A DNA stretch of 46,796 bases, from the NCBI GenBank assembly GCA_005883575.1, contig VBFH01000038.1, positions 1 through 46,796 of the forward strand, written 5' to 3'. This document shows positions 16,983-26,492 of this stretch, piece after piece. The stretch's first letter is position 1. Each line of letters begins with the position of its first letter. The notes below the pieces were generated by a model. It saw nothing but the letters and a program-made list of their open reading frames with translations. It searched no databases and was not told the DNA's origin. The translations under genes were made by a program, and so were the position numbers. The stretch is from Chloroflexota bacterium. Lineage in GTDB: Bacteria > Chloroflexota > Dormibacteria > Dormibacterales > Dormibacteraceae.

Positions 16983-16988
16983 TTGCGA

Positions 16989-16994
16989 AACTTA
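16989..16994 (-). promoter_or_regulatory. -10 hexamer TAAGTT, leaderless position
   Basis: On the reverse strand TAAGTT is followed by 6 bases and then ATG 16982. There is no Shine-Dalgarno. Inferred from pattern and spacing. Confidence 0.35.
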
Positions 16995-17057
16995 ACCAAA
17001 TCTCAGCCGCGTCGTCTGGGGCGCAACCCTACGCTGAGTAACCTCCTTTCAAAGGCT

Positions 17058-18131
17058 ATGCGGGTTGTCGTCCTCCTTCTCACACTCGGCCTGTTTCTAT
17101 TGTCTGCGCTTCCGGCCCAGGCGGCTTCGGCGCTGCCGCCGGGGCATCAGCCGATCAAGTACACGCGCTGGGCCTATCCGAGCCAGATGACCTACGGACC
17201 GATCGAGAACGGCGCCGGGAACATCGGCGAGGCGCCTTCGGCGGGCGCCTTCCTCACCCTCCCGTTCATGGGCCCGCACTACATCACGTCACTTTTCGAC
17301 CACTGCGGACCCAACTACAACGTCAGCGGCCGGATCTGCCGCTACGACGGAGCCGTCGCCTCGGCTGGGGTCGGTGGTCCTGACCCCGGCTTCGGCGCGG
17401 GCTACGCTCAGACCCCCGGCGGGCACGACTACCTGTACTACTCGGGCCACGACGGCTACGACTACGGCCTTTACTACGAGCCGGTCGCGGCCGCCGCGCC
17501 GGGCCGGGTGATCCTCGCCAACTGGCTGGTGCCCGGCTGCCACACGTGTCTCAGCGGCCAGACGGTGGAGATCGAGCACGGCAACGGGCTGATGAGCTTC
17601 TACGGCCATCTCGCGCACATCTGGGTCGACAAGGGTCAGTACGTCTCGCGCGGCCAGGTGATCGGAATCTCAGGCATGACCGGCACCGCGACCGGCCCGC
17701 ATCTGCACTTCGGCCTCTATTACACAAATGGCGCCGGACCGGTCGACCCGTTTGGGTGGGCGGGCTCGGGCGACGACCCGTACGCGAAGGACCTCGGTGA
17801 CCTCTGGCTCGGCGGCTCGCCCCGCTTTGCCTCGATCCAGATGCCCAACGTCACGGTGTCGGCCGTCTCCGATCCGGAAGACCCATCGACCATCCACGTC
17901 TCGTGGTCGAGTCCAGGCAGGATGAAGTTCTCGGTCTATCTCGTCACCCAGGATGGGTCTCGCAAGTTGTGGCGAAGCAACCAGGTGAACGGATCGTCCA
18001 CGTTCTACGGCAAGGCCGGCCAGAGCTATTGGTTCTGGGCGTCGGCGACGTCGCCGCTGGGTTGGACCGACGGTAGCGGATCGCTGCTGGTACAGGTTCC
18101 GCACCTGAATCACGGAACAATAACCTCCTAG
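17058..18131 (+). CDS. secreted M23 family metallopeptidase
   Basis: The protein (357 residues from ATG 17058) begins with a classical signal peptide, MRVVVLLLTLGLFLLSALPAQA. The M23/LytM domain has the zinc motifs GHDGYDYG (HxxxD) and GPHLHFGLYY (HxH) plus the G-NG-MSFYGHLA strand. M23 enzymes cut peptidoglycan cross-bridges or act as non-enzymatic activators of amidases; both zinc motifs are intact here. The C-terminal 90 residues resemble a fibronectin-III-like beta domain (VTVSAVSDPEDPSTIHVSWSS). A TTG at 16983 would add 25 basic residues and spoil the signal peptide; AAAGG before ATG 17058 supports the shorter form. The stop overlaps the TAGACT hexamer of the next gene. Confidence 0.88.
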   Translation: MRVVVLLLTLGLFLLSALPAQAASALPPGHQPIKYTRWAYPSQMTYGPIENGAGNIGEAPSAGAFLTLPFMGPHYITSLFDHCGPNYNVSGRICRYDGAVASAGVGGPDPGFGAGYAQTPGGHDYLYYSGHDGYDYGLYYEPVAAAAPGRVILANWLVPGCHTCLSGQTVEIEHGNGLMSFYGHLAHIWVDKGQYVSRGQVIGISGMTGTATGPHLHFGLYYTNGAGPVDPFGWAGSGDDPYAKDLGDLWLGGSPRFASIQMPNVTVSAVSDPEDPSTIHVSWSSPGRMKFSVYLVTQDGSRKLWRSNQVNGSSTFYGKAGQSYWFWASATSPLGWTDGSGSLLVQVPHLNHGTITS

Positions 18132-18143: not shown

Positions 18144-20504
18144 GTGATCGCCGAGGCCCTGAAGGGCAAGACCATCCTGGTCACCGGCAGCACCGGCTTC
18201 CTCGGCAAGTCGATCGTCGAGAAGTGTCTGCGCTCGATCCCGGACGTCGCGCGCATCAACCTTGCCATCCGGTCCAGCGCGCGGCGGCCGGCCAGTGAGC
18301 GCCTCGAGCGCGAGGTGCTTTCGAGCCCGGCCTTCAAACGCCTGAAAGACGAGCTCGGCGAGGAGCGCTTCGGCAAGCTTGCCTCCGAGAAGCTCGCCGT
18401 GATCGAGATCGACCTGGGGCGCGACGGGCTCGGCCTGAGCGATGCCGCTCGCGAACAGCTGCGCGCGTGCGACGTGGTGATCCACTCGGCGGCGGCCGTC
18501 GAGTTCGACAACCCCGCCGATCTCTCCGCCCAGACCAACCTGTTGGGTGCCGCACGTCTCGTCGAGGCCCTGCGTGCGAGCGGCGCGCGGCCGCATCTCG
18601 TGCACATCTCAACCGCGTATGTCGGAGGCATGCTGCGGGGGCGGGTGCGAGAGGAACCGCCGCTTGATCCAGGCCTCAACTGGCGTCACGAGGCCGAGGT
18701 GATGTCGAGCCTGCGCGCTCCGGTCGAGGAGGAGTCCAGGCGACCCGAGGTGCTGAACAAGCTCCGCCGTGAGGCAAGGTCCCGCATGGGACCCGCGGGC
18801 ACGCCCGCCGTCGCGCGGGCGACGGAAAGGCTGCGCGATCGGTGGGTGAAGGACCGCCTCGTCGAACGGGGTCGCACGCACGCCAACGCGATGGGGTTCT
18901 CGGACATCTACTCCTTCACCAAGGCGATGGCCGAGCAGGCGGTCGTGGAGCTGCATGGCGACATTCCCCTCTCGATCGTGCGGCCGTCGATCATCGAGAG
19001 CGCGCTGGCCGAGCCGTTCGCCGGTTGGCTCGAAGGATTTCGCATGGCCGAGCCGCTGATCCTGGCGTTCGGCCGCAACATCCTGCGCGACTTCTCGGGC
19101 TTGCCCGACTCGCTGCTCGACATCATCCCGGCGGACTTGGTGGTCAATACGGTGCTCGCGGTGGCCGCGAACCCCCCGCCGGATACCGAGCCGCGTGTGT
19201 ATCACGCCGCTTCCGGCAGCCGAAACCCGCTGCGGCTGCGACGCATGGCGGGCGAGGCCGGGATCTATTTCACCGCGCACCCATTGCGCGATCGTTACGG
19301 CCAGGCCATCGGCACGCCGTCGTGGACCTTCCCGACCCGGCAGGAGATCGCGACCCAAGCCCGCCTTGCTCTCCGTCTGGTCGAGGCGGCGCAATGGGTC
19401 GTCGAACGTCTGCCACTTGGCGCGAGCGTGGCGCAGGTTTCCGACGACCTCAACGCCGAACGTGACCGTCTCGACCGCGGCTTGAACTTGATTCAGCTTT
19501 ATGGCGTCTACACCGAGGTCGACTGCATCTTCGACACACGCAACGTGATGGCCCTGTGGGAGAAGGTGCCCGCGGCGGAACGCACGGAGTTTCCGTTCGA
19601 CCCCGCCCTGTACGACTGGTCGCACTACTTCCAGAACGTGCATTTCCCGACCGTCGTGCGTATGTCTCGCGCCGAGACGACCGCGCGGAGGGGCAAGCAG
19701 CCGAGTGGAAGCACGGCGCCAAAGACGGAGTCGAGCTCGGTGCGAGCGACGATCGAGCGCCGCAGCGGACGCGCCGACGTGCTGGCCGTGTTCGACGTCG
19801 ACGGCACGCTGGTCGAGACCAATGTCGTCGAGTATTTCCTCTGGATGCGCCTTCGGGCGCAGCCGCTCGACGAGTGGCCGTCGTTCATGGCGCGGATGCT
19901 GCGCCAGGCTCCGCGCTGGCTTTACCTCGAGCGGCGGTCGCGCGCGGAGTTTCAGCGCAGCTTCTACCGCGAGTACGACGGGCTCGACCCCGAAGTGATG
20001 CAGCGGCTCGGGCGCGAGGCTCTCGACGCCGTCACGCTGCGCCGCATCTATCCCGAGGGCATGCGCCGCATCCGCGAGCACAAGCGGGCGGGGCATCGCG
20101 TGCTTCTTCTCACCGGTGCGCTCGACGTCGTGGTCGAACCTCTGGCCGAGCTGCTCGACGTCGAGGTGGACTGCGCGCACCTGCTGGTCAACGACGGCCG
20201 CCTGACGGGCGACCTGGAGTCGCCGCCGCCCGCAGGCGAGGCGCGTAGCGCCTTGCTCGAGGAGTACGCGGGCCGCAACGGCGTGGTGCTGTCGGAGAGC
20301 TTCGCGTACGCAGACTCTCTGTCGGACCTGCCCATGCTGGAACTGGTGGGCAGCCCAGTTGCCGTAAATCCCGACGCCAGGCTGTCTCAGGTCGCCGGAC
20401 AGCGCGGCTGGCGGATCGAGCGGTGGCGGATGGCGCCCGGCAACTGGCGCCTGCCCATGCCGGACCCACGATCACCGGAGTACCTCGAGGCGGTCCGAAG
20501 GTGA
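18144..20504 (+). CDS. fatty acyl-CoA reductase-like SDR fused to HAD-IB phosphatase domain
   Basis: The 786-residue protein has two parts. Residues 1 to about 500 are an extended SDR of the FAR/NAD_binding_4 type: TGSTGFLG at 14-21, VVIHSAAAVEFD, HISTAYVGG and the catalytic YSFTK at 256-260. Residues about 545-786 are a SerB-like HAD-IB domain with FDVDGTLVE (motif I, from residue 550), LLTGALDVVVEP (motif II) and ADSLSDLPMLELV (motif IV). FAR enzymes reduce acyl-CoA to aldehyde or alcohol; HAD-IB domains usually remove phosphate. The fusion suggests one pathway making a reduced lipid moiety. GTG 18144 is the only start that fits. It heads a tight run of five further co-directional genes ending at 26492. 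Confidence 0.8.
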   Translation: MIAEALKGKTILVTGSTGFLGKSIVEKCLRSIPDVARINLAIRSSARRPASERLEREVLSSPAFKRLKDELGEERFGKLASEKLAVIEIDLGRDGLGLSDAAREQLRACDVVIHSAAAVEFDNPADLSAQTNLLGAARLVEALRASGARPHLVHISTAYVGGMLRGRVREEPPLDPGLNWRHEAEVMSSLRAPVEEESRRPEVLNKLRREARSRMGPAGTPAVARATERLRDRWVKDRLVERGRTHANAMGFSDIYSFTKAMAEQAVVELHGDIPLSIVRPSIIESALAEPFAGWLEGFRMAEPLILAFGRNILRDFSGLPDSLLDIIPADLVVNTVLAVAANPPPDTEPRVYHAASGSRNPLRLRRMAGEAGIYFTAHPLRDRYGQAIGTPSWTFPTRQEIATQARLALRLVEAAQWVVERLPLGASVAQVSDDLNAERDRLDRGLNLIQLYGVYTEVDCIFDTRNVMALWEKVPAAERTEFPFDPALYDWSHYFQNVHFPTVVRMSRAETTARRGKQPSGSTAPKTESSSVRATIERRSGRADVLAVFDVDGTLVETNVVEYFLWMRLRAQPLDEWPSFMARMLRQAPRWLYLERRSRAEFQRSFYREYDGLDPEVMQRLGREALDAVTLRRIYPEGMRRIREHKRAGHRVLLLTGALDVVVEPLAELLDVEVDCAHLLVNDGRLTGDLESPPPAGEARSALLEEYAGRNGVVLSESFAYADSLSDLPMLELVGSPVAVNPDARLSQVAGQRGWRIERWRMAPGNWRLPMPDPRSPEYLEAVRR

Positions 20505-20547
20505 CTGCCATTCCGGGGAGAGGGCGAAGGGAGAAGGGCTTGAGCCG

Positions 20548-21729
20548 GTGCTAGCGCTGCAGTACGTGCGCTCGATCCCGTCCTTCGCCGTGGTCAAGGC
20601 CGCGGGCGGACGCCCGGACGTCGCCACCAGCGCGCTGTCGATGCTCAAGCTCGGCGACGTACCCGAACCGCCCCTGCCCGCGAATGACTGGGTGCGTGTG
20701 ATGCCGAACCTCAGCGGCATCTGCGGCTCCGACCTTGCCGCGATCAGCGGCCATGTATCCCTCTACCTCGACCCCCTCACGAGCTATCCCTTCGTGCCCG
20801 GGCATGAGGTCGTGGGCGTCCTCGAAGACGGATCGCGCGTCGTGATCGAGCCCGCGCTCGGCTGCGTGGTGCGGGGCATCGATCCGCCTTGCCCGCGATG
20901 CGCCGAAGGGCGCCCGGGTCTTTGCTACAACGTGACGGACGGCCCCATCGAGGTCGGGCTCCAAACCGGCTACTGCGCCGACACCGGCGGGGGTTGGGGC
21001 GAGGTGCTGGTCGCGCACCCGAGCCAGATCCATGCCGTGCCTGACGCCCTGAGCGACGAGGCGGCGGTCCTCGTCGAACCCCTGGCGTGCTGCATCCACG
21101 CGGCCCTGCGTGGCGCTGCGACCAAGGACGACATCATTGTGGTCTCGGGCGCGGGGACGATCGGCTTGCTGACCATCGCGGCGGTGAAGCTCTTCACCCC
21201 GCCCAAGCGCCTCATCGCGATCGCCAAGCACCCGACCCAGCGTGACCTGGCGCGCAAGCTAGGCGCCGACCAGGTCGTGGCCCCGGCCGAAGCGTTCCAG
21301 CGCGTGCGATTCGCAACGGCCGCCCGGCGGCTCGACAGCATGAACCGCTCCCTGCTGCTCGGCGGCGCCGACGTCACCTTTGAATGCGTCGGACGCGCAG
21401 AAAGCCTCAACGACGCGGTGAGGTTCACACGCGAGGGCGGAACGGTGGTCGCGGTCGGGATGCCGGGCGAGGAGAAGGTCGACTGGGCTCCGATCTGGCA
21501 GCGCGAGTTGACCGTGATGGGCGCCTACGCCTACGGTGCCGAACCGAAGCGCAATGGCCGCAAGACGTTCGAGCTGGCGCTCGAGGCTGCGCCTGAGATC
21601 AACCTCGAGGAGCTGACCGGGCCGCTGTTTGGGCTTGGCGAGTACCGCGACGCGATCTCATACGCGATGAGCGCTGGACGCTTAGGCGCCGTGAAGGTGG
21701 CATTTGATCTGCGACGATTGAGAGCCTAG
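20548..21729 (+). CDS. zinc-dependent alcohol/polyol dehydrogenase (MDR)
   Basis: The 393-residue protein is a threonine/sorbitol-dehydrogenase-like MDR. Catalytic zinc ligands appear in GICGSDLAA and FVPGHEVVGVL, structural-zinc cysteines in GC...PPCPRCAEGRPGLC (with an unusually long gap between the first two), and the Rossmann motif in VVSGAGTIGLLTIAAVK. It probably oxidises a secondary alcohol with NAD(P)+. GTG 20548 is preceded by GAAGGG. It follows the acyl-CoA reductase fusion by 43 bases and its TAG is directly followed by the ATG of the LarA-like gene, so the three very likely work together. Confidence 0.83.
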   Translation: MLALQYVRSIPSFAVVKAAGGRPDVATSALSMLKLGDVPEPPLPANDWVRVMPNLSGICGSDLAAISGHVSLYLDPLTSYPFVPGHEVVGVLEDGSRVVIEPALGCVVRGIDPPCPRCAEGRPGLCYNVTDGPIEVGLQTGYCADTGGGWGEVLVAHPSQIHAVPDALSDEAAVLVEPLACCIHAALRGAATKDDIIVVSGAGTIGLLTIAAVKLFTPPKRLIAIAKHPTQRDLARKLGADQVVAPAEAFQRVRFATAARRLDSMNRSLLLGGADVTFECVGRAESLNDAVRFTREGGTVVAVGMPGEEKVDWAPIWQRELTVMGAYAYGAEPKRNGRKTFELALEAAPEINLEELTGPLFGLGEYRDAISYAMSAGRLGAVKVAFDLRRLRA

Positions 21730-23307
21730 ATGCCTCGCCCCGGAGCAGTCATAGAAGTCGATCGCAACACGCCGCCGGTGCTCTTCCATTTCGGCGAAGG
21801 CATCCGGCTCGAAAAGATGCCGCTTGGTGCGCGCATCGTCTACCCGCCTGACCCGCTCGAACCCATCGGGCATCCGGAGCGCGCCATCAAGCGCGCGCTC
21901 GCCAAGCCCCTCGAAGACGATCCGCTGAAGTCGCTGCTGCGGCGCGGAATGAAGCTGACGATCGCGTTCGACGATCTTTCGCTTCCCTTGCCGCCGATGG
22001 CGGCGCCCGACGTGCGCCAGCTGGTCATGGAAGAGGTCATCGACATGGCCGCGGAGGCGGGCATCGACGACCTGCACATCATTGCCGCGCTCGGTCTGCA
22101 TCGGCGCATGACCGAGGACGAGCTGCGCCACATCGTCGGTGACCGAATCTTCAGCACCTTCCATCCCGAGCGCCTCTACCAGCACGATGGTGAAGACCCG
22201 GAGAACAACGTCTACGTGGGCAAAACCGCGCAGGGAGAGGAGGTCACCCTCAACCGGCGCGCCGCGGAGTCGGACCTCGTCATCTACGTCAACCTCACCC
22301 TGGTGCCGATGGACGGCGGCCACAAGTCGATGTCGACGGGACTGGCGTCCTACCGGGGTATCCGAGCGCATCACAACGTCAAGACGCTCTTGGGCTCGCG
22401 CTCGTACATGAACCCGCCGGACTCCGCGCTCCATCACTCCTGTATTCGCCAGGGGCAGCTGATCGAAGACACCGTGCGCGTGTTCCACATCGAGACTACC
22501 GTCAACAATCACGCGTTTCCGGCGATCGCCAACTTCATGCAGAAGCGCGAGACCGACTGGACCGCTCAGGACCAAGCGATATTTCTCGCCACCAAGCAGA
22601 TGACCGATCTGGCTCCCCCGGCATTCAAGCGCAACGTCTTTCATGCCATGCGAGCGCCCTACGGATTGACCGCCGTCAACGCCGGCCAGGTCGATGCCGT
22701 GCACGACAAGACGCTGGACGCGGTCAACCGGCAGATTGCAGTGCGGGTCGAGGGCCAGACGGACATCGTCACCATCGGTGTCCCTTACCTCGGGCCCTAC
22801 AACGTCAATGCGGCGATGAACCCGGTCCTGGTTCTCTGCATGGGCGCCGGCTACCTGTTCAACTTCTACCGCAACAAGCCGGTCCTGAGGAAAGGCGGCG
22901 TCCTGATTCTCACGCATCCCTGTCGTTACGAGTTCGATGCCGTGCAGCATCCGAGCTACATCGACTTCTATGACGAGGTCCTTGCCGACACCAAGGACCC
23001 GGCCGAGATCGAGAAGAAGTACGAGCTTCGGTTTGCGGAAGACCCCTGGTTTCGCCAGCTATACCGGAAGTCACACGCGTACCACGGAGCGCATCCCTTC
23101 TACGCGCTCTACTGGGCCGCCCACGCGATGGACCACGCGGGCGACATCATCATCGTCGGCGGCGATCGTGACGTGGTCCATCACCTGGGCTTGAAATGCG
23201 CCACCACGCTCGAGGACGCTTTCGAGATGGCCGAGCAGACCGTCGGCCGTTACCCGAGCATTACCCACCTTCGAACCCCTCCGATAATGCTTTGCGAGGT
23301 CGAATAG
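21730..23307 (+). CDS. lactate racemase homologue (LarAH, DUF2088)
   Basis: The 525-residue protein resembles LarA, the enzyme that uses a nickel-pincer (NPN) cofactor to racemise 2-hydroxy acids by hydride transfer. Seen here: IAFDDLSLPLP for the LarA D-TRP-P motif, GLHRRMTEDE (H124) for the first catalytic histidine, GGHKSMSTG with K199 at the cofactor-attachment lysine and, 16 residues later, HH at 214-215 where LarA has its nickel ligand. The second catalytic histidine expected ten residues before the lysine is not evident (LTLVPMDGG). It is about 100 residues longer than LarA. The cofactor genes larB, larC and larE are not in the window. The substrate is unknown. Confidence 0.75.
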   Translation: MPRPGAVIEVDRNTPPVLFHFGEGIRLEKMPLGARIVYPPDPLEPIGHPERAIKRALAKPLEDDPLKSLLRRGMKLTIAFDDLSLPLPPMAAPDVRQLVMEEVIDMAAEAGIDDLHIIAALGLHRRMTEDELRHIVGDRIFSTFHPERLYQHDGEDPENNVYVGKTAQGEEVTLNRRAAESDLVIYVNLTLVPMDGGHKSMSTGLASYRGIRAHHNVKTLLGSRSYMNPPDSALHHSCIRQGQLIEDTVRVFHIETTVNNHAFPAIANFMQKRETDWTAQDQAIFLATKQMTDLAPPAFKRNVFHAMRAPYGLTAVNAGQVDAVHDKTLDAVNRQIAVRVEGQTDIVTIGVPYLGPYNVNAAMNPVLVLCMGAGYLFNFYRNKPVLRKGGVLILTHPCRYEFDAVQHPSYIDFYDEVLADTKDPAEIEKKYELRFAEDPWFRQLYRKSHAYHGAHPFYALYWAAHAMDHAGDIIIVGGDRDVVHHLGLKCATTLEDAFEMAEQTVGRYPSITHLRTPPIMLCEVE

Positions 23308-23312
23308 AAGCA

Positions 23313-23963
23313 ATGAACCGCCTCACCGTCCTCGCGTGCGCCCTGCTGCTCGCGGCATGCGGCGGTTCGACCGGCGGCAGCGGCTCTGGCTCGCAGCCAA
23401 AGCAGGAGACGTCCGCCCAGAGCGTCGCTTCCAACTCCTCGGACTTTCCGGGCATGCAGAAGTGTCCTGAGAGCGGGTCGTGGGACAACTACCTGAAAGC
23501 CGAGCAAGCCAAGGATCCGACCCAGTTCCAGAGCGACAAGTCAGACTGGGATTCGCTGAAGGCCGCGGGCGCGAACGACAGCTACGTCGGTGTGTACGCC
23601 GACGACTCCTCGCACTGCGGCAACTTTGGCTCGGACCAGGCGACCGGCAAGATCGTCGACGTCTACGCGGTGCGCTTCAAGGACTCCTCATCCGCCTCCG
23701 CCAACTTCAAGACCAACTCGAAGGACTTCCACCTCAGCGATTCCGACCTCCAGAGCATCAAGTCCGCCGGAGGCAAGGTCGACCAGGGTGCGACGACGGG
23801 GCTCGGCGACAACTCCGTCGCGGTCTCGTTGGCGATCGCCGGTACATCGTTCTACATCGCCTTCTGGCAGAACAGGCAGTTCGAGGTGGCGATAATCGCG
23901 TACAACCTGGTGGTCGCGGACGGCCAGGCGGCCAGCAAAAAGATCAACGACCGCATCCACTAG
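23313..23963 (+). CDS. secreted lipoprotein, unknown function
   Basis: The 216-residue product has a lipoprotein signal peptide with lipobox LLAACGG (Cys16), a Gly/Ser-rich linker, and a soluble domain of about 160 residues containing two cysteines (MQKCPESGSWD and SSHCGNFG). The domain matches no family I know; alternating polar and hydrophobic stretches (VDVYAVRFKDSSSASANFKT, SFYIAFWQNRQFEVAIIAYN) look like an alpha/beta fold. It lies 5 bases after the LarA-like gene and its stop shares a base with the PlsC-like start (TAGTG), so it belongs to the lipid-type operon. Confidence 0.75.
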   Translation: MNRLTVLACALLLAACGGSTGGSGSGSQPKQETSAQSVASNSSDFPGMQKCPESGSWDNYLKAEQAKDPTQFQSDKSDWDSLKAAGANDSYVGVYADDSSHCGNFGSDQATGKIVDVYAVRFKDSSSASANFKTNSKDFHLSDSDLQSIKSAGGKVDQGATTGLGDNSVAVSLAIAGTSFYIAFWQNRQFEVAIIAYNLVVADGQAASKKINDRIH

Positions 23964-24841
23964 TGGCCTGGTACTCCGAAGGCCCGGTGACCAGGCTTGC
24001 CGGCGTCGCCGGCCGAACCCTCGACGACGTGATGCGCGTGCGCCGGGGTTGGAAATGGAACGCCCCTCGGCCGCGCACGTGGCCCGAGCAGGGTATGGTG
24101 GTGCCGGCTCCACCCAGCGACCTGGGCTGGGCGCGGGTGGAACCTGTGCGTTCGATCCGCTACCTGATCCAGCGTCTACTGCTCATGCCCTTCACCGAGG
24201 CGATGGTCCATCCGAAGGTCGAGGGCAGGGAGTGGGTGAGGGAGCTCAAGCGTCCTGCGATCTTCGCCGCCAACCACTCGAGCCACGCTGACACTTCGCT
24301 GATCCTCTATTCGCTGACGGATGCGGTGCGTGACCGCACGGTCGTGGCGGCGGCCGCGGATTACTGGTTCAAACACCCGATCCTCGGCAACATCGTCAGC
24401 CTCTTCCTCAACACGTTCCCCTTCTCCCGCACCGGGGGTGCGCAGGGCCAGCTGCACAGCTCGAGCCAGCTCCTGAAGTCGGGATGGAACCTTGTCCTCT
24501 TTCCTGAGGGCAGCCGCTCACCCGATGGACGCATCCAGGAGTTCAAGCCGGGCGTCGGCTTTCTCGCCAAAGAGACCGGAACGCCGGTGGTCCCCCTACA
24601 CATTCAGGGCGCATTTCAGGTGATGCCGCGACATCAGAATCTGCCGGTGCCCGGACCGGTGCGCGTGCGTATCGGCAAGCCCATGACCCTGGATGCAAAC
24701 GAAGGTACGCGCGAGTTCACCGCCCGGGTGGAGAAGGCGGTTCGTGCGTTGGCGAGCGAGCCGAAGCAGCCCGACCTGCAGGGCACTTGGATCGAACGCT
24801 GGCGTGCATCGAAGCCGCGCCAGCTCAAGTACGGCGACTAG
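23963..24841 (+). CDS. 1-acyl-glycerol-3-phosphate acyltransferase-like protein (PlsC family)
   Basis: The 292-residue protein has the PlsC motifs: [10 protein letters not shown] (HX4D catalytic), [19 protein letters not shown] for acceptor binding, and [11 protein letters not shown]. PlsC enzymes move an acyl chain from acyl-CoA or acyl-ACP to a lysolipid or other alcohol at the inner face of the membrane. GTG 23963 overlaps the lipoprotein stop; earlier starts would lie inside that gene. The N-terminal 50 residues ([19 protein letters not shown]) are not part of the core fold. Its place after an acyl-CoA reductase suggests that it attaches or remodels the lipid made by this operon. Confidence 0.85.
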
Positions 24842-24848
24842 CGGTGCC

Positions 24849-26492
24849 ATGACCGCGGCGGGTGAGCTCGCGCGCGGCCGCCGCGCATACGACCGGCAAG
24901 ACTGGACGCAAGCGCATGCAAGCCTCACGGCCGCCGGCGCGAAGTCGCAGCTCGGGGCCGAAGACCTGGAACGATTGGCGATCTCGGCGCAGCTCCTCGC
25001 CCACGACGAAGAGGCCGTTGAGGTATGGCAAAGGGCGCACAACGCCTATCTCGAAGCCGCTGATGTGGAGCGAGCCGTCCGCTGCGCGGTGCACATGGTC
25101 ATGAACCTCGTCAATCGAGGTGAGATGGCCAGGGCGGGCGGATGGCTCGCTCGAAGCCGGAGACTTCTAGATGACGGACAGCGCGACTGCGTCGAGCTCG
25201 GCTACCTGATGGTCCCGGCCTCGCTGCAGACCCTGATGCAGGGCGACGTCGAAGGCGCGAGCGAGATGTTCGGGCGCGTGATCGACATCGCCGGACGCTT
25301 TGGTGATCCCGACCTTGCGGCCCTGGGCCGGCTGGGCCGCGGCCAGTCGCTGCTCGCCCTCGGACAGATCGGCGCCGGCGTCGCCCTGTTCGACGAGAAC
25401 ATGGTCGCCGTGACCTCGGGGGAGATCGCTCCCATCATCTCGGGCCTGATCTACTGCGCGGTCATCGACGGCTGCCGTGGCATCTTCGACCTCCGGCGAG
25501 CGCACGAGTGGACCGAAGCGCTGAATCACTGGTGCGAGTCTCAGCCCGGCCTCGTGCTGTACCGCGGCAACTGTCTCGTTTTCAGGGCGCAGATCATGCA
25601 GATCCACGGCGAATGGTCCGAGGCCCTGGCCGAGGCGGACAGGGCGTGCGTGCGGCTCTCGGAGCCCCACCTTCAACCTGCCGCGGGCGACGCCTTCTAC
25701 CGACTGGCCGAGCTGTACAGGCTGCGCGGAGAGTTCTCGAGGGCCGAGGCGGCGTTCCGTCAGGCAAGCGAGGCTGGAACGTCGGCTCAGCCGGGTCTGG
25801 CGCTGATGCGATTGGCCCAAGGCCAGATCGGGCCGGCCGCCGCCGCGATCCGCCGCGAGCGTGACGAGGCGCAATTGCTGCCTGACCGTTGCGCGGTCCT
25901 GCCCGCGTTCGTCGACATCATGCTCGCGGCGCATGACCTCGAGGCGGCCGGGGAGGGCGCGGAAGAGCTCGAGGCCGCGGCCGGCGCACTGCAGGCTCCA
26001 TATCTGCGGGCTCTCGCCGGCCATGCCAAAGGCTCAGCGCTGCTTGCGAACGGCGACCATCGCCGCGCCCTGGAGTCGCTGCGTTCGGCGGCCGCGCTTT
26101 GGCGTGAGGTCGAAGCTCCCTATGAAGGCGCGCGGACCCGCGTGCTGATCGCGATCGCGTGCCGCGCGATGGGCGACGCGGATGCCGCCTCGATGGAGCT
26201 CGACGCTGCACGCCGCGTCTTCAACCGCCTCGGGGCGGCGCCTGACCTGGCCCACGTCGCCGTGCTAGCTCGAGGCGAATCAACCGCTCCCGGAGGGTTG
26301 TCGGCGCGCGAGGTGGAGGTGCTGCGGCTGCTGGCCGCGGGCAAGAGCAATCGCGCCATCGCCGGAGATCTCTTCATCAGCGAGAAGACCGTGGCGCGCC
26401 ACGTCAGCAACATCTTCACGAAGCTCGGCCTTTCCTCTCGCGCCGCGGCCACCGCCTATGCGTACGAGCACGGACTTACGGCGCGTACATAG
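24849..26492 (+). CDS. LuxR-type regulator with TPR-like repeats
   Basis: The protein (547 residues from ATG 24849) is mostly helical repeats of the TPR/MalT type (for example [35 protein letters not shown] and [17 protein letters not shown]), ending in a LuxR/GerE DNA-binding domain ([45 protein letters not shown]). No ATPase (STAND) domain or Walker A is seen, so it differs from full MalT/LAL regulators. The ATG lies 7 bases after the acyltransferase stop, suggesting that it is the last gene of the lipid-type operon. It is followed after about 100 bases by a monooxygenase gene that it may also control. Confidence 0.87.

Follow-up and report, generated by a model that had tools for sequence, protein, structure and literature searches.

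A conserved bacterial operon centred on a LarA-type nickel-pincer enzyme and a fatty acyl-CoA reductase: a candidate pathway to ether-linked glycerolipids

In a 46,796-nucleotide contig from a member of the Dormibacteraceae (VBFH01000038.1, assembly GCA_005883575.1; the whole stretch is called the window here), one operon encodes a fatty acyl-CoA reductase fused to a HAD-IB phosphatase domain (FAR-HAD), an MDR zinc alcohol/polyol dehydrogenase, a LarA homologue of the LarAH14/15/16 type (LarAH) and a PlsC-type acyltransferase. By its relatives, the genome, a MAG, belongs to Candidatus Dormibacterota. We conclude that this operon is real, conserved and coherent, and that its best reading is the synthesis of 1-O-alkyl (ether-linked) glycerolipids with a nickel-pincer nucleotide (NPN) enzyme at the centre of the pathway, a reading to which we assign a probability of about 0.52.

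The genes lie on the forward strand at 18144–20504 (FAR-HAD), 20548–21729 (MDR), 21730–23307 (LarAH) and 23963–24841 (PlsC), with a lipoprotein gene at 23313–23963 whose TAG stop shares one base with the GTG start of plsC. The open reading frame coordinates reproduce exactly the layout described in the initial annotation, namely five co-directional genes with gaps of 43, 0, 5 and −1 bases, followed after 7 bases by a LuxR-TPR regulator, and domain searches (Pfam, NCBIfam) back each of the gene family names given there. A scan for promoters and terminators returned nothing above chance.

A comparison of 115 loci shows the order FAR-HAD, MDR, LarAH, PlsC kept both among Dormibacterota and among many Actinomycetota, Acidimicrobiia and Actinopolymorpha being examples, with gaps mostly below 100 bases. 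Because order and strand hold over two phyla, down to ∼54–57% LarAH identity, the conservation is beyond chance. The MDR gene is core in most lineages, and some Acidimicrobiia lack it at this position; in some genomes of the clade that contains Rubrobacter, genes for protoglobin, MarR and MOSC proteins, which are not obvious pathway genes, are inserted between MDR and LarAH. Co-occurrence was measured in 346 Actinomycetota genomes, 71 of which carry LarAH14/15/16 above the family cut-off and 75 FAR-HAD. FAR-HAD was present in all 71 LarAH genomes (Fisher p = 1e-69, uncorrected for phylogeny) and, wherever the two shared a contig, lay upstream of LarAH in the same orientation and no more than 8 kb away (65/65 cases). 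The four genomes with FAR-HAD only include contig-end fragments and one split LarAH gene. Co-conservation in relatives, which the initial annotation had proposed as the check on its operon, was thus found to be strong for four of its five genes. It is very improbable that the genes are neighbours by inheritance with no common pathway: flanking Ddl and MurF-like genes are also syntenic within Acidimicrobiia, but the cluster keeps the same order in different phyla with differing flanks, its presence is patchy, and FAR-HAD accompanies LarAH in 71/71 genomes. In many Acidimicrobiia a TetR regulator is divergent from FAR-HAD (L088:3701-4360 and ∼20 other loci).

LarC, the nickel-inserting enzyme of NPN synthesis, was found in 69/75 cluster genomes versus 128/271 other Actinomycetota. 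Within Dormibacterota, one family has LarC and LarAH together, three others have almost no instance of either, and the lone cluster-positive genome outside that one family has LarC too. The window's own genome encodes both LarC and LarE.

The reductase half of FAR-HAD is assigned by its NAD_binding_4 and Sterile domains, the HAD domain completing the fusion. The Sterile match in the window scores 34.5 bits, just below the cut-off of 35.4, which is exceeded in the related locus L106. The best PDB match, spanning both halves of the fusion, is fatty acyl-CoA reductase 7eoz (E 1e-60), the TGxTGFxG motif is present, and YxxxK and the HAD motifs are kept across relatives. From its family, the protein is predicted to give a fatty alcohol. 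In Acidimicrobiia (e.g. L107), HAD motif I reads DLENT, with DxE instead of DxD, in 41/73 sequences. The DxE form also occurs in enolase-phosphatase E1. The MDR protein (ADH_N/ADH_zinc_N) has conserved GICGSD, GHE and EP motifs, and its nearest solved structures are ketose reductase and sorbitol, idonate and xylitol dehydrogenases. PlsC (PF01553, E 9e-22; NHSSHAD and FPEGSR motifs) best matches the 1-acyl-sn-glycerol-3-phosphate acyltransferase 5kym and is conserved in position after LarAH. In the Rubrobacter-containing clade no PlsC follows LarAH where a PlsY gene, encoding a glycerol-3-phosphate acyltransferase above the equivalog cut-off, stands directly upstream of FAR-HAD, as it does in 16/16 newly fetched loci and in L169 and L170.

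The earlier proposal of a lipid-type operon combining a reduced fatty chain with acyl transfer is well supported. A wax-ester or fatty-alcohol pathway, with the FAR alcohol esterified by the PlsC-type enzyme, would also place reductase and acyltransferase in one operon, and actinobacterial FARs do feed wax esters (PMC3522743, PMC11948995). Bacterial wax synthases, however, are of the WS/DGAT type and not PlsC; in the Rubrobacter-containing clade the place of the acyltransferase is held by PlsY, which acts on glycerol-3-phosphate; and LarAH and the HAD domain would be left without a part. We consider such a pathway decidedly unlikely.

The LarAH protein scores 828 bits against NF052592 (LarAH14/15/16; cut-off 740) and also matches Lar_N. 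Two single-His LarA structures, 9q3k and 9q3j, come closest to its AlphaFold model (pLDDT 87; TM 0.85 and 0.83 by target length), and all 19 PDB matches of the model at E ≤ 0.001 are LarA-type or the homologue 4nar, which supports the LarA fold. Residues K199 (NPN-binding Lys184), H215 (Ni-binding His200), D82 (ribose Asp72) and H124 (catalytic His108) are invariant in 90/90 sequences, and LarAH should bind NPN because these cofactor, nickel, ribose and first catalytic positions are all retained. The second catalytic residue, His174, is lost by deletion of its loop (LVPMDGGHK), and the position of the carboxylate-binding Arg75 is Leu85 in 81/90 sequences and Cys or Ile in the rest. Since the second His and the Arg are lost, a role as an ordinary two-base hydroxy-acid racemase is unlikely. 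The group 17 enzymes LarA_Bw and LarA_Sp (9q3j; 9q2u/9q3k) share with LarAH the fold, the cofactor Lys, the Ni-binding His, the ribose Asp and the single catalytic His. They differ in having Asn for the second His, where the loop is deleted here, in the Arg/Lys site, which is Leu here, and in lying in a glycolysis rather than a lipid neighbourhood. A sister LarAH subfamily in Actinomycetota (L157, L158, L171; ∼420–540 bits to NF052592) is found without FAR-HAD, in mixed neighbourhoods that gave no clue to the chemistry.

These residues also bear on the hydroxy-acid head group that the initial annotation had suggested. A lipid whose hydroxy-acid or polyol head group, or 1,2-diol backbone, is set by LarAH and MDR would fit the 2-hydroxy acid and aldonate substrates of LarA relatives (PMC11770544), the resemblance of MDR to polyol dehydrogenases, and the link of single-His LarAHs to carbohydrate metabolism (PMC12611868). 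Against it stand the loss of the Arg75 equivalent in every sequence, the deleted His174 loop, and the behaviour of a Frankia group 14 member, which was inactive in seven hydroxy-acid tests, lactate, malate, hydroxyglutarate and gluconate among them; for groups without His174 the authors suggested a different hydride-mediated reaction (PMC7583248). The head-group proposal is accordingly not favoured, and we regard it as quite unlikely.

How might an NPN enzyme serve ether-lipid synthesis? In the pathway that we envisage, FAR would reduce acyl-CoA to a fatty alcohol, and PlsY would supply 1-acyl-glycerol-3-phosphate; its gene is part of the operon in the clade that includes Rubrobacter and would lie apart from it elsewhere. 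LarAH could then park the hydride of the glycerol C2 hydroxyl on NPN, whereupon the sn-1 acyl group would leave, the fatty alcohol would add at C1, and return of the hydride would yield 1-alkyl-glycerol-3-phosphate. The outcome would be that of alkylglycerol-phosphate synthase (AGPS), reached by hidden redox. Acylation of sn-2 by PlsC would make the product a mixed ether/ester lipid, and, judging from their families, the HAD domain may remove a phosphate and MDR may tune the glycerol unit's redox state. That LarAH14/15/16 is itself an NPN-dependent alkylglycerol-phosphate synthase, forming the ether bond through hidden redox at glycerol C2, we offer as a tentative proposal.

Two known ether-lipid systems offer comparison. 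One comprises the myxobacterial elb ether-lipid operon, which encodes a HAD protein (elbB), a FAR-ACS-ACP-AGPAT protein (elbD) and a dehydrogenase (elbE), and MXAN_1674-1676; the main ether route of M. xanthus is independent of AGPS (PMC9131029). Both operons group a FAR, an AGPAT-like acyltransferase, a HAD protein and an NAD-type dehydrogenase. Here, however, FAR and HAD form a single protein, a separate gene encodes the acyltransferase (PlsC or PlsY), LarAH is the constant partner, and a domain search found neither ligase nor ACP of the ElbD architecture (FAR-ligase-ACP-acyltransferase) in the window operon. The eukaryotic peroxisomal route (FAR1, GNPAT, AGPS, alkyl-DHAP reductase) resembles the operon in its supply of fatty alcohol, its glycerol-phosphate acyltransferase and its redox step, and a true AGPS occurs with the Streptomyces relative described below. 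It differs in that AGPS is flavin-dependent and lies outside the window operon, with LarAH in the block instead.

On a megaplasmid of Streptomyces NBC_01450 (L331, NZ_CP109481.1 1066625-1086832), a FAR-HAD (39% identical) stands beside a divergent PlsC gene, followed by an AGPS gene whose best PDB match is Dictyostelium ADPS (E 2e-114); LarAH was absent near this FAR-HAD and from all PLSDB plasmids, the Streptomyces chromosome lying outside the search. In the actinobacterial locus L112, AGPS (E 9e-76 to ADPS), an uncharacterised gene, FAR-HAD, MDR, LarAH and PlsC form one same-strand run, and L070 and the genomes G307 and G408 likewise have AGPS-like genes close to FAR-HAD. Through these links FAR-HAD is tied to ether lipids, and together with PlsY they point to a glycerol backbone and an ether bond. 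They do not show LarAH to be the bond maker, because several genomes encode both enzymes and the overall distribution of AGPS does not follow that of the cluster. AGPS as a hidden general partner was considered and dropped, being present in 27/75 cluster genomes versus 89/271 others.

The window operon contains no AGPS gene, and one lies elsewhere in the same genome (G000:C86:86773-88137; L183, L185), flanked by GlpB-like and DAG-kinase-like open reading frames, with strong matches in 37/37 searched genomes of its family. LarAH is thus no simple replacement for AGPS everywhere. Ether lipids might be made by AGPS encoded elsewhere or by ElbD-like enzymes, with FAR-HAD supplying only the alcohol and LarAH acting to the side, for example by adjusting the redox state or the epimer of a glycerol derivative. 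The AGPS neighbours just described would accord with this, as would an AMP-ACP-PlsC protein in Rubrobacter radiotolerans. Yet 48/75 cluster-bearing Actinomycetota, R. radiotolerans included, are without AGPS at E ≤ 1e-40, and FAR-HAD almost always has LarAH as its partner. We judge this division of labour rather unlikely.

Genome G117 is R. radiotolerans: the PurK of this species' plasmid NZ_CP007515 is 100% identical to a protein of G117, and 57 kb of G117 match that plasmid at 99.96–100% DNA identity. Six more members of the clade, with PurK 67–73% identical, are probably Rubrobacter, and the others, at 46–49%, are more distant. Both purE and purK are plasmid-borne in R. radiotolerans (L239:44931-46615). 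Its operon reads PlsY, FAR-HAD, MDR, LarAH, spaced by 1, 7 and 75 bases, and its genome carries LarC. In 1.6 Mb of chromosome and plasmid 1 (the other 46% of the chromosome lying outside the search) we found no AGPS, no second FAR, no second PlsY and no match to YjiL/YjiM of E. coli, which served as approximate stand-ins for Ger/PlsA. Plasmid 1 also carries, in a row, genes for a PLP aminotransferase, a GNAT protein and an NAD-dependent epimerase (L237:14230-17597), which recall bacterial sphingolipid genes. To our knowledge, 1-O-alkyl glycerol has been published only for Rubrobacterales among known cluster carriers. The order is reported to be dominated by mixed ether/ester lipids, as the title of a paper cited in PMC11150832 states.

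Several points weigh against ether glycerolipid synthesis by this operon, or against its novelty. AGPS shows no association with the cluster, as counted above, and AGPS and LarAH occur together in several genomes, the window's own included. The negative searches in R. radiotolerans leave 46% of its chromosome uncovered, and the protein on its plasmid 1 (L237:33458-36190) joins AMP-ligase, ACP and PlsC, resembling ElbD without the FAR domain; it is a possible other source of the ether lipids of this species. We know of no report of ether lipids for Acidimicrobiia or Actinopolymorpha. The literature on Dormibacterota lipids and on ether lipids of Acidimicrobiia yielded no link and no lipid data for Dormibacterota, nor did we find a nickel-pincer enzyme tied to lipids in a literature search that covered the 2020 LarA paper apart from its supplementary context table. 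As to novelty, Sinninghe Damste and colleagues reportedly described in 2023 (Syst Appl Microbiol 46:126404) a putative 1-O-alkyl glycerol phosphate operon in five Rubrobacter species, R. radiotolerans being one. The genes are probably the same, and the Rubrobacter part of the operon may already have been proposed there. New here are the operon's occurrence in Dormibacterota and Acidimicrobiia and its link to a nickel enzyme.

The lipoprotein and LuxR-TPR genes are local additions. The lipoprotein has a lipobox (LLLAACGG) and no Pfam or NCBIfam match; 14 copies were aligned, their number varying from 0 to 2 per close relative, and outside close Dormibacterota the gene is absent. This lineage-specific family is fast-evolving, lying between LarAH and PlsC (L042, L043, L044) and sometimes forming two diverged tandem copies. 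The LuxR-TPR gene (24849–26492, forward strand, ATG start at 24849; GerE/TPR domains) has a match in one relative only (L036). The initial annotation had counted the lipoprotein among the five genes and listed LuxR-TPR as following them; both fall outside the conserved unit. A same-strand neighbour overlooked there, an M23 peptidase gene (16983–18131; PF01551), ends 12 bases upstream of FAR-HAD, a place that in our comparison of upstream genes is kept in Dormibacterota only.

The LarAH14/15/16 family has had no known activity since one member was tested in 2020, and the operon gives it a testable job. A second question is by what route aerobic actinobacteria, Rubrobacter among them, form ether lipids without AGPS, and linking LarAH to ether lipids makes both questions testable with few genes. 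If the proposal is true, LarAH would for the first time take NPN catalysis to a substrate other than a 2-hydroxy acid, and bacterial ether-lipid chemistry would reach beyond AGPS and Ger/PlsA. The interpretation of lipid biomarkers would then take in Dormibacterota and Acidimicrobiia, both of them common in soil and sea.

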